A stretch of DNA of 64,000 bases from Catellatospora vulcania (GCF_009720385.1 NZ_WARX01000001.1:868001-932000), one strand, 5' to 3'; positions 12,868 to 19,345 are shown, counted from the stretch's first letter. The notes: generated from the letters alone by a model not told the origin. Numbers and translations: made by a program.

Positions 12868-12942
12868 CTACGTTGCGTTCGATAAATCGGCAACCAGATC
12901 GTTGCTATGGAGAAGCGTATTAGCAGTTGAGGGCAATGATTT

Positions 12943-12996
12943 CGTTGCAACGGGCCTGAAGCTGAATGCAATGAGCGACCCAGTGATCGTTGCATT
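12943..12996. promoter_or_regulatory. TTGCA-type palindromes before the MarR-like regulator gene
   Basis: Two palindromes share one core: CGTTGCAACG (12943-12952) and AATGCAA...TTGCATT (12965-12971 and 12990-12996). They lie 60-110 bases before the regulator gene and may be its autoregulatory operators. Confidence 0.45.
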
Positions 12997-13054
12997 GGGC
13001 TGGGCGCGAACGCTACGCTGGCGGCGACAGTCAAAGCACGAAGGGAGTTCGCGC

Positions 13055-13798
13055 GTGCCGGGAGGCAGACTCACCCAGCAGGAACGGCAGCAGATCGCGC
13101 TGGGGCTGGCCGACGGCCTCGCCTACGCCGAGGTCGCCCGGCGTCTCGACCGCCCCACCTCGACGATCACGCGCGAGGTGATGCGCAACGGCGGCCCCAC
13201 CGCCTATCGGGCCGACCTGGCCCACCGCGCCACCGAACGCCGCGCCCACCGACGAAAGCTCAGCCCGCCCCGGGAGCAGGGGGCGCTGGTACAGGGCCCC
13301 GGGCGCGACCCCGAGGCCGTGCGCGAGTACGAGGAGGCCTTCGCCACCCTGATGATGCACCAGGGCCTGCCCAAGATGATGGCCCGTGTGCTGACCTGCC
13401 TGTTCATCGCCGACGCGGGCAGCCTCACCGCGTCCGAACTCGTCTCGCACCTGCAGGTCAGCCCGGCGTCGGTCTCCAAGGCGATCACGTTCCTCGAAGA
13501 GCAGGGCCTCATCCGCCGGGTCCGCGACGAACGCCGCCGCGAGCGCTACTTCGTCGACGACGGCGTCTGGTACCAATCGACGATCGCCAGCGCCCGTGGC
13601 ATCGCCCAGGTCGCCGAGACCGCGCGCAAGGGCGTCAGCGTCCTCGGCCCCGGCACCCCGGCCACCGTCCGCCTGGAGAACATCGCCCGCTTCAGCGACT
13701 TCATCAGCGAGAGCATCCTGCGCGCCGCCGAGCAGGTCCGCGAGATCCTCTACACCAAGCCCGAAGCGAGCCCAGGCGACACCGTCAAGCCGGGCTGA
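13055..13798 (+). CDS. Regulator combining an IS30-type HTH with a GbsR/MarR winged helix
   Basis: Encodes 247 residues from the GTG at 13055 (AAGGGAG upstream). Residues 1-70 match the N-terminal HTH of IS30-family transposases: RLTQQERQQIALGLADG, YAEVARRLDRPTSTITREV, then a basic tail RATERRAHRRK. Residues about 90-245 are a GbsR/MarR domain with LTASELVSHLQVSPASVSKA (recognition helix), FLEEQGLIRRVRDERRRERY (wing) and a long C-terminal dimer helix. The protein thus has two DNA-binding modules in one chain. Divergent orientation and palindromes in the 230-base spacer point to repression of the DUF4097/hydrolase operon and of itself. Confidence 0.85.
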   Translation: MPGGRLTQQERQQIALGLADGLAYAEVARRLDRPTSTITREVMRNGGPTAYRADLAHRATERRAHRRKLSPPREQGALVQGPGRDPEAVREYEEAFATLMMHQGLPKMMARVLTCLFIADAGSLTASELVSHLQVSPASVSKAITFLEEQGLIRRVRDERRRERYFVDDGVWYQSTIASARGIAQVAETARKGVSVLGPGTPATVRLENIARFSDFISESILRAAEQVREILYTKPEASPGDTVKPG

Positions 13799-13844: not shown

Positions 13845-13901
13845 GTGTCAGGGGCCGTGTCAGAAGCGTGTCAGGGTGGTGACAGGCCGGATCTCGATAG
13901 T
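13845..13901 (+). promoter_or_regulatory. SARP-type heptamer array and leaderless promoter of the exporter operon
   Basis: Four direct heptamers GTGTCAG/GTGACAG begin at 13845, 13857, 13868 and 13879, spaced 12, 11 and 11 bases, one helical turn each. Ten bases after the last is a GATAGT -10-like hexamer (13896-13901), and the ATG of the ABC gene follows seven bases later, so the mRNA is probably leaderless. Direct heptamers at 11-bp pitch are the hallmark of SARP activators. Confidence 0.8.
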
Positions 13902-13908
13902 CATCGGC

Positions 13909-14850
13909 ATGACGAATTCAGCGATCGCGGTCTCCGGACTGCGGAAGGCCTACAAGGACAAGGTCGTGCTCGACGGCATCGACTTCGAGGTCCGCGCAGG
14001 AACGGTGTTCTCCCTGCTCGGCCCGAACGGCGCCGGCAAGACGACGACGGTGAACGTGCTGACCACGCTGCTGAGCGCCGACGCCGGCACGGTCCGGGTC
14101 GCCGGGCACGACGTGGCGAGCAACGCGAAGGCGGTGCGGGCGGCGATCGGGGTCACCGGTCAGTTCGCGGCGGTCGACGAGCTGCTGACCGGCCAGGAGA
14201 ACCTGCAGCTGATGGTGGACCTGAACCGCGCGGTCGCCGGTGACGGCAAGCGGATCGTCGCGGACCTGCTGGAGCGGTTCGAGCTGACCGCGGCGGCGGG
14301 CAAGCCCGCCTCGACCTACTCCGGGGGTATGCGCCGCAAGCTCGACCTGGCGATGACGCTGGTCGGCAACCCGCAGATCATCTTCCTGGACGAGCCGACG
14401 ACCGGGCTGGACCCGCGCAGCCGCCGCACCATGTGGTCGATCATCCGCGGCCTGGTCGCCGACGGCGTGACCGTCTTCCTCACCACCCAGTACCTGGAGG
14501 AGGCGGACCAGCTCGCCGACCGGATCGCGGTGCTGGACAAGGGCCGGCTGGTCGCGCAGGGCACCGCCGACGAGCTCAAGCGGCAGATCCCCGGCACTCA
14601 CATCCGGTTGCGGTTCACCACCGCCGCCGAACTCGACGCGGCCGCCCGGGTGCTGACCGACGCCACCCGCGACGACGAGGCGCTGGCCCTGCGGGTGCCC
14701 GGTGACGGCGGCACCAAATCGCTGCGGGCGCTGCTGGACCGGCTCGACGAGTACTCCCTCAGCGCCGAGGAGTGCTCGGTGCACACCCCCGACCTCGACG
14801 ACGTTTTCCTCGCCCTGACGGGCCACACCACGGAGGTGGAAGCGAAATGA
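13909..14850 (+). CDS. DrrA-family ABC transporter ATP-binding protein
   Basis: Encodes 313 residues from the ATG at 13909. Motifs in order: Walker A GPNGAGKTT (about 38-46), Q-loop in VTGQFAAVDELLTGQ, signature YSGGMRRKLDLA, Walker B IIFLDEPTTGLD, switch His replaced by Gln in LTTQYLEEADQLAD, as is usual for DrrA-type proteins. The C-terminal 80 residues are the DrrA-specific domain that contacts the permease. The longer frame (from 13816) runs through the operator and is rejected. Its stop overlaps the start of the permease gene (ATGA). Relatives export anthracyclines and other secondary metabolites. Confidence 0.92.
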   Translation: MTNSAIAVSGLRKAYKDKVVLDGIDFEVRAGTVFSLLGPNGAGKTTTVNVLTTLLSADAGTVRVAGHDVASNAKAVRAAIGVTGQFAAVDELLTGQENLQLMVDLNRAVAGDGKRIVADLLERFELTAAAGKPASTYSGGMRRKLDLAMTLVGNPQIIFLDEPTTGLDPRSRRTMWSIIRGLVADGVTVFLTTQYLEEADQLADRIAVLDKGRLVAQGTADELKRQIPGTHIRLRFTTAAELDAAARVLTDATRDDEALALRVPGDGGTKSLRALLDRLDEYSLSAEECSVHTPDLDDVFLALTGHTTEVEAK

Positions 14851-15593
14851 GCAAGTCGCACTCGCTGGTCATGCTGCGCCGCAACTTCAAGCACATCGCC
14901 CGGAACCCGACCTCGGTCTTCAACGCGGTCCTGATGCCGATCATCATCATGCTGATGTTCGTGTACATGTTCGGTGACGCGTTCAGTGTCGGCGTCGACT
15001 ACATCGACTACGCGACACCGGGGCTGATCCTGCTGGCCGTCTGCTACGGGCTGGGGGCCACCGCGACGGCGGTGAACTCCGACATGACCAAGGGCATCAT
15101 CAACCGGTTCAAGGTCATGGACGTGTCCCGCGGCGCGGTGCTGACCGGCCACGTCATCGCCAGCGTGCTGACCAACGTGATCGCCATCGCGGCGCTGATC
15201 GGGGTGGCTTTCCTGCTGGGCTTCAGCCCGGCGGCGAGCCTGCCGCACTGGCTCGGCGTGGTCGGGATGATCGTGCTGCTCGGCTTCGCGGCCGGCTGGC
15301 TCACCGTCGCGCTGGGACTGTCCGCGAAGTCGCCGGAGACGGCGGGTCTGGCCGCGGTGCCGCTGGTCATGCTGCCGTTCTTCAGCAGCGCGATCGTCCC
15401 CGCCGAGAAGATGGGCCCCGGCCTGCGCCAGTTCGCCGAGTACCAGCCGTTCACGCCGATCATCGAGACCATGCGCGGGCTGCTCAACGGCGCGCCGGAC
15501 ACCACCGACGCGATCGTCGCGGTCGCCTGGTGCGTCGTGATCGCGCTCGTCGGCTACCTGTGGGCGCGGTCCACGTTCAAGAAGCGAGCGTGA
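14847..15593 (+). CDS. ABC-2 type permease (DrrB-like)
   Basis: Encodes 248 residues from the ATG at 14847 inside the ATGA overlap with the ATPase gene. Six membrane segments are visible, starting with VFNAVLMPIIIMLMFVYMFG and ending with IVAVAWCVVIALVGYLWA. The ABC-2 signature region between helices 5 and 6 (FAEYQPFTPIIETMRGLLNG) is intact. With the ATPase it should form a two-gene exporter of the DrrAB type. Its last 17 bases overlap the convergent end of the SARP gene. Expression is expected to follow the SARP heptamer promoter upstream. Confidence 0.92.
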   Translation: MSKSHSLVMLRRNFKHIARNPTSVFNAVLMPIIIMLMFVYMFGDAFSVGVDYIDYATPGLILLAVCYGLGATATAVNSDMTKGIINRFKVMDVSRGAVLTGHVIASVLTNVIAIAALIGVAFLLGFSPAASLPHWLGVVGMIVLLGFAAGWLTVALGLSAKSPETAGLAAVPLVMLPFFSSAIVPAEKMGPGLRQFAEYQPFTPIIETMRGLLNGAPDTTDAIVAVAWCVVIALVGYLWARSTFKKRA

Positions 15594-18500
15594 CCTCGGC
15601 CAGCTCGGCCCAGCTCGTCTGAACACCTTCCGCAGCCGCCTCGGCGAACCTTGTGTCGCCGAGGCGGCTGCGTGCTGCCCGCTCGATCCGGCCCGTGTCC
15701 GGCAGCGAACGGTCCGCCAGCCCGCGTACGGCGTCGCTCGCCGCCAGCAGCCGGGCGGCCTGCTCGGGCTGGTCACGGCGCAATGCCAGGTCCGCTATGC
15801 CCACCAGCACCTGGGCGATCATGGGCACGTGCCCGGTCTCGGTCGCCGCCTGGTAGGCCGCGGTGCGGTGCGCGCGGGCCTCGTCCAGGTCGTCGGCGAG
15901 GTAGCCGAGCAGGTCGTGGGTCAGCGCGCGGAGCTTGTCCGCCTTGTCGCCCAGCATGGCGGTCGCCGCGTCGAGCTGCCGGCGGGCCTGCCCGGCGTCG
16001 CCGCGCCAGCGGGCCAGTTCCGCCTTCGCCAGGGCCAGCTCCGCCAGCGCCTCCGGCCAGGTGACCCGCTCGGCGTGGCGTTCGGCCTCGGCCATCGCGG
16101 CCTCGCCGGCGGCGGCGTCACCGAGCAGCCAGTACAGCTGCGCCTGGCGCGACCGCATCCGGATGACGTCCTCGACGGCGCCGACCTCGGTGACCACCGC
16201 GATCGCCTGCTCGTAGTACTCGCTCGCGGCGGCGAACTCGCCCCGGGTGGCGATGCGGTCCGCCAGCACGGTCAGCGCGAACGAGATCCCGAACCGTTCG
16301 CCGAGCGCCTGGAACTCGGTCAGCGCCGTCCGCAGGTCCGTGTCCGCGTCCTGCCCGGCGTGGCCGAGCAGGATCCGCGACTTGCCCAGATGCAGCCGGG
16401 CCAGCGCGCGTACCCAGGGGTCCTCGTGGTCGAGCATCGACTCCCACGCGGGCAGGATCGCGTCCGGTCCGGCCAGCATGCGTTCCAGCGGGACCACCAC
16501 GGCCAGCACGGGATTGCCCGACCGGCTGCGCCCGGCGAACCGGTACGCCTGATGGATCCATTCCGCCACCTGGTGTTCGTCGGCGGCCCGGCCGGAACTG
16601 GCGAACGTCACGGCGTGGCCGTAGACGGTGGCCCGGATCTCGTCGTCCACCTCGCCGGGCAGCCCGGCGGCCGCGGAGATCAGCTCCATGCCTTCGGCCC
16701 GGTGCCCGCTGAGCCACCAGTACCAGCCGGCCCCCGCCGCGAGCCGCATCGGCGCCTGGGCTTGTCCGGCGGCGAGCGCACCACGCATCGCGGCGGTGAT
16801 GTTGTCGTGCTCGGCGTCGAGCGTCGCCAGCCATGTCAGCTGCTCGGCGCGGCGCAGGTGCGGGTCCGCCTTCTCGGCGAGTTCGGTGAAGTAGGCCAGG
16901 TGCGCGTCGCGCGCCAGGTCCGACTCCGCCGCCTCGGCGAGCCGCTGGGCGGCGTACTCCTTGATCGTGCCGAGCATCCGGTAGCGCGGCGCGCTGTCAC
17001 CCGCGGCGACCAGCAGCGACTTCTCGGTCAGCGCGGTGAGCAGCTCGAGCACGTCCTCGGGCGCGACGTCGTCGCCGACGCAGACCCGTTCGGCCGCTTC
17101 CAGGCTCGCCCCGCCCGAGAACACCGACAGCCTGCGCAGAACCACCCGTTCGGCGTCGGTGAGCAGCTCCCAGCTCCAGTCGACCATCGCGCGCAGGGTC
17201 CGGTGCCGGGGCAGCGCGGTGCGGCTGCCGCCGGTCAGCAGCCGGAACCGGTCGTCGAGCCGGTTCGCGAGCTGGTCGATCGTCATGGTGCGCAGCCTGG
17301 CCGCGGCCAGTTCGATCGCCAGCGGCATCCCGTCCAGGGCCCGGCAGACCCGCGCCATCGTCGTCAGGGTGTGCGCGTCGAGCACGAGATCCGTGCGTAC
17401 CGCACCGGCCCGGTCCAGCAGCAACCGGACGGCCGGCGCGGCCGCGATCCCGGCCGGGTCGGCGTCCTTGGCGGGCAGGGCCAGCGGCGCGACCGGCCAC
17501 AGCGCCTCACCGGTGATGCCCAGCGGTTCCCGGCTCGTCGCCAGGATCCGCAGCCGCCGGCACTCCCCGAGCAGGCGGTGGGCGAGTTCGGCGGCCGGCT
17601 CGATCACGTGCTCGCAGTTGTCCAGGATCAGCAGCATCTCCCGGTCCCCGATCGCGGCGATGAGCCGGTCCCTGGGCTCCAGGTTCGACGGCTCCCCGAG
17701 CAGCGCGTCGCGCAGGCCGAGGGCCGCGAGCGTCGCCTGCGCCACGTCACCGTCGGCGCCGATGGCCGCGAACTCGACCAGCCAGGCCCCGTCGGGCAGG
17801 TCGGCGAGCAGTCCGCGCCCGGTTTCGTTGGCCAGCCGCGTCTTGCCCGACCCGCCCGGCCCGATCAGGGTGGTGAGCCGGTGCTCGGCGACGAGACCGG
17901 CGACCGCGGCCACGTCGGCGTCCTTGCCGATGTAGCTGGCCAGTTCGGCCCGCAGGTTCGTGTTCCGGTTCTCCTGCCGCCGTCCCGACTCGCCGCGCAG
18001 CAGCGCGACGTGCAGCGCGGACAGCTCCGGCGAGGGGTCCACGCCCAGCGCGTCGGCCAGGGCCTCCCTCGTGCGCTGATACACCTGCAGGGCCTCGGTG
18101 TCCTGCCCGGCGCTCATCAGGGCCCGCATGAGCGCACCGGCGAGCCGTTCGCGCAGCGGGTGCGCGGCGACCAGGTCGGTCAGTTCCGTGACCAGGTCCG
18201 CGCCGTGGCCGAGGCCGAGCTCCGCGTCGAAGCGGTCCTCCGTGGCGGTCAGGCGCAGCCGGTCGAGCCGGGTGACCGCAGCATCCAGCGCCAAGCTGTC
18301 GGGCAGGCCGACGTCCTGCATGGCCGCACCGCGCCACAGGGCGAGGGCCTCGCGCAGCCGACGTACGCGCTGCGGGCCGTCGTCGTCGCGCACCCGGCCC
18401 ACCAGGCGTTCGAAACGCACCGCGTCGACGGCGTCGGGCTCGACCGCCAGCCGGTAGCCGTCCGAATGCCCCTCGATCGAGCCGTCCGGCAGCGCCTTGC

Positions 18501-18711
18501 GCAGCCGGGAGACCAGGCGGTGCAGCGCGTTCGTCGCGTCGGCGGGCGGGTTCTCGCCCCAGATCCAGTCGAGCAGCGTCGCCTTCGGGACCACCCGACC
18601 CGGTTCCAGGGCCAGCGCGACCAGCAGCCCGCGCAGCCGCGCACCCGGCACGTCGGCGGCGGTGCCGTCGTCCGTGCGCACCTCGAACGGTCCGAGCATC
18701 GCGATCTGCAC
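15577..18711 (-). CDS. AfsR-type SARP transcriptional activator with NB-ARC and TPR-like domains
   Basis: Encodes 1044 residues from a GTG. Residues 1-95 are the OmpR-like DNA-binding domain (ENPPADATNALHRLVSRLRK), 100-240 the BTAD domain ending SAGQDTEALQVYQRTREALA, 260-600 an NB-ARC/STAND ATPase with P-loop GPGGSGKT (284-291), Walker B LLILDNCEHV and the ATSREPLGI sensor, and 620-1040 helical repeats. Such proteins bind 11-bp-spaced heptamers and recruit RNA polymerase; the ATPase part gates this by ligand or phosphorylation. Identical heptamer arrays lie before the neighbouring exporter operon and before the gene at 18941, so both are likely targets. Length is normal for AfsR-type proteins. 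Confidence 0.92.
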   Translation of the reverse strand: MQIAMLGPFEVRTDDGTAADVPGARLRGLLVALALEPGRVVPKATLLDWIWGENPPADATNALHRLVSRLRKALPDGSIEGHSDGYRLAVEPDAVDAVRFERLVGRVRDDDGPQRVRRLREALALWRGAAMQDVGLPDSLALDAAVTRLDRLRLTATEDRFDAELGLGHGADLVTELTDLVAAHPLRERLAGALMRALMSAGQDTEALQVYQRTREALADALGVDPSPELSALHVALLRGESGRRQENRNTNLRAELASYIGKDADVAAVAGLVAEHRLTTLIGPGGSGKTRLANETGRGLLADLPDGAWLVEFAAIGADGDVAQATLAALGLRDALLGEPSNLEPRDRLIAAIGDREMLLILDNCEHVIEPAAELAHRLLGECRRLRILATSREPLGITGEALWPVAPLALPAKDADPAGIAAAPAVRLLLDRAGAVRTDLVLDAHTLTTMARVCRALDGMPLAIELAAARLRTMTIDQLANRLDDRFRLLTGGSRTALPRHRTLRAMVDWSWELLTDAERVVLRRLSVFSGGASLEAAERVCVGDDVAPEDVLELLTALTEKSLLVAAGDSAPRYRMLGTIKEYAAQRLAEAAESDLARDAHLAYFTELAEKADPHLRRAEQLTWLATLDAEHDNITAAMRGALAAGQAQAPMRLAAGAGWYWWLSGHRAEGMELISAAAGLPGEVDDEIRATVYGHAVTFASSGRAADEHQVAEWIHQAYRFAGRSRSGNPVLAVVVPLERMLAGPDAILPAWESMLDHEDPWVRALARLHLGKSRILLGHAGQDADTDLRTALTEFQALGERFGISFALTVLADRIATRGEFAAASEYYEQAIAVVTEVGAVEDVIRMRSRQAQLYWLLGDAAAGEAAMAEAERHAERVTWPEALAELALAKAELARWRGDAGQARRQLDAATAMLGDKADKLRALTHDLLGYLADDLDEARAHRTAAYQAATETGHVPMIAQVLVGIADLALRRDQPEQAARLLAASDAVRGLADRSLPDTGRIERAARSRLGDTRFAEAAAEGVQTSWAELAEVTLAS

Positions 18712-18791
18712 CTGACAGATCCTGCCACGAACGATGATCAGGAAGGAACCGGCCGATGTCCGGGGTCGCCGCCGTCAGGCGTTCTGTCGCG

Positions 18792-18868
18792 GTGTCAGTG
18801 CTCGGAGCGCGGTGTCAGTGCCCGTGTCAGGGCGGTGGCAGACCGGTGTCAGGCGCGACGCCGATGGT
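18792..18868 (+). promoter_or_regulatory. SARP-type heptamer array before the small gene
   Basis: Heptamers GTGTCAG, GTGTCAG, GTGGCAG and GTGTCAG begin at 18812, 18824, 18835 and 18846, with the same 12-11-11 spacing as the array at 13845. A further copy lies at 18792. Ten bases after the last one is GATGGT (18863-18868), again the same distance as before the exporter gene. The array sits in the spacer between this gene and the SARP gene itself, so it may also serve autoregulation. Confidence 0.8.
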
Positions 18869-18940
18869 TGACCCATGACAGAAACCGGCACGGCCCGCCC
18901 CACCGGTTCACGTGAGTTCCGTACGAAGGAGTGCACCGCC

Positions 18941-19345
18941 ATGACCATCACCATCTCCGAGCAGGACCAGACCACGCTGCGCCTGGCCGCTTACGGCGCC
19001 GTCACGCTGCTGGCCGCCGCAGGCGCCGCCGGCGGCTCACCTCACAAGATCGCGACGAACGGCAGTATCGCGCTGGGCTCGGCCACCGGCCTGGTCGGGC
19101 ACGTGCTCGCCAAGTACCCGAAGGGCAAGGACCTCAACGGCAAGTCCGTGGCCGAGATCGCCGACCGGGTGCTGCCGGCGCTGACCGCGTCGATGACCCT
19201 GCTCAAGGGGCAGTCCCCGGCGGAGGCGGACAACTTCCGCAGCGCCGTCGTCACCGCGATCGAGTCCGCCACGCACCACAGCCAGCCCGGCCCGGTGGTC
19301 GCCGACATGATCAACAAGATCACGAAGGCGCTCGACGCCGCCTGA
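18941..19345 (+). CDS. Small Ala-rich protein of unknown function, probable SARP target
   Basis: Encodes 134 residues from the ATG at 18941, which has GAAGGAG nine bases upstream. An in-frame ATG at 18875 lies where a leaderless transcript would begin (six bases after the -10-like box) and would add 22 residues; I cannot exclude it. The protein begins TITISEQDQTTLRLAAYGAV, then a glycine/alanine-rich segment, then a helical C-terminal half (VAEIADRVLPALTASMTLLK). No family, signal or catalytic motif is recognised. The heptamer array before it, matching that of the exporter operon, suggests it belongs to the same regulon. Confidence 0.75.
   Translation: MTITISEQDQTTLRLAAYGAVTLLAAAGAAGGSPHKIATNGSIALGSATGLVGHVLAKYPKGKDLNGKSVAEIADRVLPALTASMTLLKGQSPAEADNFRSAVVTAIESATHHSQPGPVVADMINKITKALDAA

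Follow-up and report, generated by a model that had tools for sequence, protein, structure and literature searches.

Predicted GTGTCAG-Type Operators of a Large SARP Regulator Adjacent to drrAB in Catellatospora vulcania

Genes of the Locus

The 64,000-nucleotide stretch of Catellatospora vulcania DNA analyzed here (hereafter, the window) carries drrA and drrB, a convergent gene encoding a large SARP and a gene for a small helical protein (Table 1). The drrA product scores 315.1 bits against TIGR01188, above the curated cut-off of 312.45, and the adjacent gene encodes an ABC-2 permease recognized by PF01061, a combination that identifies a DrrAB exporter; the drrB product falls below the cut-off of the DrrB subfamily model TIGR01247. 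The drrB start was set from the ATGA overlap, and its orthologs align from about residue 25-27 of the longer open reading frame onward. The 3' end of drrB overlaps the SARP gene. An upstream gene (12902-13798) with HTH_38 and MarR-type helix-turn-helix matches ends 46 bp before array 1.

Table 1. Features of the locus and of the third array (positions counted in the window unless a contig is given).
Feature	Position	Strand	Description
Predicted SARP operator 1 (array 1)	13845..13885	+	GTGTCAG-N5-GTGTCAG-N4-GTGTCAG-N4-GTGACAG
Predicted -10 element GATAGT	13896..13901	+	10 nt after array 1
drrA, DrrA-type ABC exporter ATPase	13909..14850	+	TIGR01188, PF00005; predicted leaderless
drrB, ABC-2 type membrane subunit	14847..15593	+	PF01061; ATGA overlap with drrA
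Large SARP	15577..18711	-	1044 aa, GTG start; PF00486, PF03704, weak PF13401
Extra GTGTCAG	18792..18798	+	20 bp upstream of array 2, out of 11-bp register
Predicted SARP operator 2 (array 2)	18812..18852	+	GTGTCAG-N5-GTGTCAG-N4-GTGGCAG-N4-GTGTCAG
Predicted -10 element GATGGT	18863..18868	+	10 nt after array 2
In-frame upstream ATG	18875..18877	+	alternative leaderless start; also in G004
Ribosome-binding site GAAGGAG	18925..18931	+	9 nt before the ATG at 18941
Target gene of array 2 (predicted)	18941..19345	+	134-aa helical protein; no Pfam/NCBIfam family
Third array	G000:C3, last three heptamers 152544-152572		CTGTCAG-N5-GTGTCAG-N4-GTGTCAG-N4-GTGGCAG

The regulator shows the domain order of the SARP family, an N-terminal OmpR-type winged helix (PF00486, 35.1 bits for a cut-off of 26.2) followed by a BTAD (PF03704, 127.4 bits for a cut-off of 22.1), and then a probable NTPase region and a putative C-terminal sensor region. 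It matches the SARP structure of AfsR (8hvr), which phmmer returns together with the AfsR structures 8k60 and 8jke. The AAA_22 match (PF13401) is weak, at 23.8 bits for a cut-off of 27; the alignment with AfsR nevertheless spans residues 3-598, supporting the NTPase part, and the C-terminal TPR part gave no significant match. With 155.2 bits against the NCBIfam AfsR equivalog NF053617, for a cut-off of 1430, the protein is a large SARP but is not AfsR itself. Shorter SARP paralogs, with frames of 810-844 aa, are found at three related loci (L023, L025 and L026, in G002, G005 and G004, respectively). Over their N-terminal 660-710 residues they share 76-79% identity with the window SARP, but the C-terminal region is unmatched, which suggests that the sensor part may have been exchanged or lost.

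The 134-aa protein has homologs in 61 of the 201 genomes of the family. Its AlphaFold model (pLDDT 85) has six helices, and a Foldseek comparison with the PDB returned no match at E <= 0.001 (best E 0.56).

Heptamer Arrays in the Window and in the Genome

The two arrays of the window share the same geometry. The units are GTGTCAG (13845), GTGTCAG (13857), GTGTCAG (13868) and GTGACAG (13879) in array 1 and GTGTCAG (18812), GTGTCAG (18824), GTGGCAG (18835) and GTGTCAG (18846) in array 2, with a 12-11-11 spacing in both. The hexamer that follows lies 7 nt before an ATG (13909) for array 1 and 6 nt before an ATG (18875) for array 2. The earlier note had described this succession of heptamers, hexamer and ATG, and every element of it is exact in the sequence. 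A search for the four-heptamer pattern that tolerated up to three mismatches found it at 13845 and 18812 and nowhere else in the window, and 100 dinucleotide shuffles contained no copy. Lone GTGTCAG is not over-represented in the window (12 observed, 10 expected); since it stays at background, the signal is the array and not the heptamer. The extra GTGTCAG upstream of array 2 is missing at the matching place in the ortholog L005 and is probably incidental. On the minus strand upstream of the SARP start (18711), array geometry was not seen, and control of the SARP through an array of this kind in its own promoter was therefore rejected; two degenerate heptamers, CTGTCAG (18718) and GTGGCAG (18728), lie there 10 bp apart.

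Over the whole 8.83-Mb genome, a pattern of three heptamers, 10 nt and GANNNT with up to three mismatches gives exactly three arrays, all of them just upstream of genes, and the reversed pattern gives no match. The third array is followed after 10 nt by GAGTCT and, 7 nt further, by the ATG of a CPBP/Rce1-like membrane protease gene (PF02517) located on a different contig. The idea of a small regulon confined to the surroundings of the AfsR-type gene is not upheld, because this third predicted promoter extends the predicted regulon beyond the neighborhood.

Promoter Architecture and Leader Length

SARP operators are made of heptameric direct repeats with an 11-bp or 22-bp pitch, the 3' repeat being located 8 bp from the -10 element (PMC10936776). 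The present arrays are likewise heptameric direct repeats of 11-bp pitch, with a first interval of 12. The 10 nt between the last heptamer and the hexamer correspond to 6 bp after a full 11-bp repeat, close to the published 8 bp but not identical. A logo of 76 arrays, picked on their heptamers alone so that the hexamer was not selected, shows a constant 10-nt gap to (C)GANNGT; 93% of the hexamers have A at position 2, and 91% have T at position 6. The cryo-EM structure of AfsR places one repeat at -40 to -30 and the other at -29 to -19; the protomers touch the first 8 bp of each repeat, and region 4 of sigma is held above them (PMC10936776). If transcription starts at 18875 for array 2, the last heptamer begins at -29 there and at -29 or -30 in array 1. 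Thus, the two proximal heptamers coincide with the AfsR dimer, and the two distal ones would represent extra sites.

In Streptomyces, many mRNAs lack a leader, 22% of them in S. avermitilis (PMC8780764), which makes transcription starts at the ATG of drrA and of the CPBP gene plausible. In most orthologs of these two genes, the start codon is located 6-7 nt past the hexamer, and both genes look leaderless from this comparison. The earlier note had proposed leaderless promoters for drrA and for the gene behind array 2; the proposal fits drrA but is not upheld for the second gene, the orthologs of which have leaders of variable length (about 18-72 nt). A start at the distance of 18875 is shared with only one other ortholog, in G004, and is absent from G005, G006 and the more distant orthologs examined, so that this upstream start was rejected. 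Most plausibly, the gene starts at 18941, behind GAAGGAG; with this motif and the variable leaders of its orthologs, it is probably not leaderless.

Conservation Across Actinobacteria

The association of arrays with these genes was examined without recourse to the motif, by taking the drrA genes located near SARPs in a set of 80 loci from named actinobacteria, the SARPs of which are 37-77% identical. Where the neighboring SARP reaches 55% identity or more, 22 of 23 drrA genes have an array upstream, versus 35 of 920 trials with shuffled heptamers that attain the same score (p = 4e-28), and the array is nearly always followed by a hexamer 10 nt downstream and a start codon 6-7 nt further on. 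The hosts include Nocardia, Micromonospora, Streptomyces, Kribbella, Actinoplanes, Promicromonospora, Catenulispora and Phytoactinopolyspora. Over the full set of 80 loci, arrays were found on 31 locus strands, and twelve shuffled heptamers gave none. Arrays also precede 18 of 30 orthologs of the 18941 gene and 17 of 30 CPBP orthologs, against 0 of 600 with shuffled heptamers in each case. In G004 and G005, which belong to the same genus, arrays likewise stand before drrA and before the 18941 and CPBP genes. Elsewhere, arrays are also found before genes for a cytochrome P450, a DUF4097 protein and a FAD-binding protein.

An array match was obtained in 97 of the 201 family genomes. Array and SARP ortholog occur together in 68 of them, the SARP alone in 6, the array alone in 29 and neither in 98; the array is thus present in 68/74 genomes with the SARP versus 29/127 without it (Fisher p = 4e-23). 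Across the phylum, the strict pattern occurs in 3 of 396 genomes, including that of the window, a count that is uninformative because this sample consists mostly of distant lineages. Taken together, these genome comparisons indicate that the operator-regulator pair is real and widely conserved. At six further loci (L282-L287, in G065, G040, G108, G097, G116 and G084), the SARP has about 46-52% identity and a gene for a distant 18941 protein homolog lies nearby, with DrrA/DrrB homologs adjoining in most; in this clade of about 50% identity beside drrAB, no arrays of the window geometry were found.

Recognition of the Heptamer

In the alignment with AfsR, SARP residue 65 corresponds to Thr88, one of the two AfsR residues that touch specific bases (PMC10936776). 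This residue covaries with bases 3 and 4 of the heptamer. Base 3 is G in all 92 units associated with Arg65 SARPs versus 51 of 72 with Ala65 (p = 5e-9), and loci with at least one non-G unit at this base number 0 of 21 and 12 of 13, respectively; these p-values overstate the case because related sequences are not independent. The GTATCAG variants of the Ala65 SARPs come from Nocardia, Streptosporangiaceae and Jiangella. In the gene tree, the Nocardia Ala65 group is nested among Arg sequences, which suggests that the Arg/Ala change happened repeatedly, a single origin being also compatible with the tree. In AfsR numbering, residue 88 contacts base five of the repeat and residue 92 base three (PMC10936776), and the covariation at residue 65 is therefore near the expected contact, not on it.

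A sister SARP clade has arrays of CCGTCAG, CGGTNNG or CGGTCAG with the same geometry, placed directly downstream of its own SARP genes. At the loci concerned (L116, L122, L126, L127, L130, L134, L135 and L136), a 10-nt gap leads to an ANNNT hexamer, with an ATG 6-7 nt later, before the next gene. Where the only close relative is a SARP of 57-64% identity, arrays occur in 11 of 12 genomes; all twelve SARPs examined have Val65, and they are unlinked to the arrays where checked, consistent with action in trans. In five genomes (G113, G145, G160, G166 and G169), the last heptamer is often GTGCAAG, not GTGNCAG, and the SARP is a Val65 variant (PGARSR, KALPKG), possibly a further covariation. Five genomes of genus g12 (G121, G130, G133, G136 and G142) carry several arrays, up to nine, and no close SARP was found in them, the only shared candidate being an Ala65-type relative of 47-48% identity. 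The arrays of this genus (L186-L188, L191) precede, among others, several paralogs of the 18941 type, CPBP genes and an ABC ATPase gene.

Overall, the case for the window SARP itself reading the heptamer is good, though not decisive. The link between the arrays and this SARP, as drawn in the earlier note, gains support from the way the arrays track it across actinobacteria, from their AfsR-like register and from the covariation in the recognition helix.

Proposed Mechanism and Alternatives

We consider it highly likely that the SARP binds the GTGTCAG arrays and, in an AfsR-like manner, acts as an activator of drrAB and of the 18941 and CPBP genes; very probably, it binds the two arrays on either side of its own gene. 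Direct contact with the arrays, a positive and not a negative effect, the positions of the transcription starts and the nature of the signal are inferred. The N-terminal OmpR-type domain would read GTGTCAG on one face of the helix, at the 11-bp pitch. The two promoter-proximal heptamers, in about the register of the AfsR protomers (-40, -29), would replace the contact of sigma with a -35 element, and the two distal ones would add more SARP subunits. In this way, the SARP would turn on three or more promoters, each with GANNNT as a weak -10 element: those of drrAB, translated without a leader, of the 18941 gene, with a short leader and its own ribosome-binding site, and of the unlinked CPBP/Rce1-like membrane protease gene, again leaderless. 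In AfsR, the NOD and TPR regions have a modulating role (PMC10936776). For the NTPase and C-terminal regions of the present SARP, a role as sensor of a toxic compound or of envelope stress is probable, and the set would therefore be an inducible export/detoxification regulon. The targets, comprising an exporter, a protease-like protein, a P450, a FAD enzyme and a small helical protein, look like such a response. Activation of DrrAB and of the 18941 gene by the SARP, as initially envisaged, is accordingly favored in its main line by the sequence comparisons, with two amendments, the leader of the 18941 gene and a wider regulon.

Two observations run against this proposal, namely the arrays of genus g12 in genomes without a close SARP and the unlinked arrays of the Val65 genomes. 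In a rival reading, the arrays are operators of another regulator, which could be a different SARP or belong to an unrelated class of DNA-binding proteins, and the SARP of the locus is a neighbor that travels with drrAB. The arrays in genomes without a close SARP speak for it, as do those of G006 and G077, which are unlinked to the SARP. We hold this reading to be improbable, since recognition helix and heptamer covary, a second SARP clade has a different heptamer, the register is AfsR-like and co-occurrence is strong even where SARP and arrays are unlinked, as with the Val65 SARPs.

It is conceivable that the SARP binds the arrays mainly as a repressor relieved by the signal, as Atr32, an NB-ARC SARP, negatively regulates atratumycin production (PMC6835768). 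This is very unlikely, because the operators lie upstream of a weak -10 element in the activating register typical of the class, not over the start site, and because SARPs are otherwise mostly activators (PMC10972967). That the arrays have no regulatory function, arising by chance or repeat expansion, can hardly be maintained: slippage can create short tandem repeats, but none appeared in the shuffles, the arrays are kept across families while their spacers vary, and hexamer and start codon stay at a constant distance. A chance or simple-repeat origin was rejected on the shuffles, the reversed pattern and this conservation.

The mechanism would be of a known kind, and the export/detoxification-type regulon unusually wide. 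SARPs are known chiefly as activators of antibiotic clusters. Here, an uncharacterized large SARP gains a precise predicted operator and a conserved, drug-export-linked target set; because arrays precede the same few genes in many actinobacteria, this set constitutes a testable list of predicted targets. The covarying helix residue opens DNA recognition by SARPs to direct testing. On a broader view, to which we give an even chance, an ancient actinobacterial family of large SARPs would act as one-component sensors of toxins or stress beside DrrAB-type exporters. In that view, the promoter geometry would be fixed and the heptamer specific to each clade (GTGTCAG, CGGTCAG and others), and sequence would then reveal a residue-to-base recognition code as well as the regulon of each clade. 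A core resistance regulon outside biosynthetic clusters, including the 134-aa and CPBP proteins, would be under the control of the GTGTCAG clade.

Comparison With Known Systems

The earlier note had not recognized the heptamer as one known for a SARP, and GTGTCAG was not found as a SARP site in the literature searched; a known SARP heptamer was thereby rejected, and this one is apparently undescribed there. The closest system is AfsR of Streptomyces coelicolor, acting at the afs box of afsS. It shares with the window SARP the N-terminal and NTPase architecture, and its direct repeats, also of 11-bp pitch, have a poor -35 element on one side and a suboptimal -10 element on the other, in a register close to that seen here (PMC10936776). 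However, AfsR uses two units of the repeat CGTT(T/C)ATCGNN (PMC10972967) instead of three to four of GTGTCAG, and a -10 element CACTGT (PMC10936776) instead of GANNNT. Its target is afsS, whereas those predicted here are an exporter, a protease-like protein and a 134-aa protein, and the NF053617 score of the window SARP, given above, is far from that required of an AfsR equivalog.

For PimR, a SARP-LAL, three heptamers (CGGCAAG) separated by 4-nt spacers were tested by promoter engineering (PMC5930380). The spacing is as here, but the heptamer is another one, the operator does not overlap the -35 element and the regulator serves a single target gene in an antibiotic cluster. DnrI of Streptomyces peucetius is a SARP for which binding to the resistance genes drrAB and drrC has been reported (reference 47 of PMC7559539). 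Unlike the large SARP described here, with predicted targets conserved across several families, it belongs to the daunorubicin pathway (PMC7559539).

In Amycolatopsis sulphurea, an AfsR/SARP regulator gene also lies beside drrAB, and its point mutations accompany chelocardin resistance (PMC7559539); the likeness concerns drrAB adjacency and regulator type, and this protein may belong to another clade. All nine of the nine resistant mutants analyzed had point mutations in this gene, and overexpression of drrAB alone gave no resistance (PMC7559539). By analogy, these genetics point the same way as the export/detoxification reading proposed here. The authors proposed that the regulator has additional target genes (PMC7559539), and the operator motif described here provides a tool for finding further targets of that kind.
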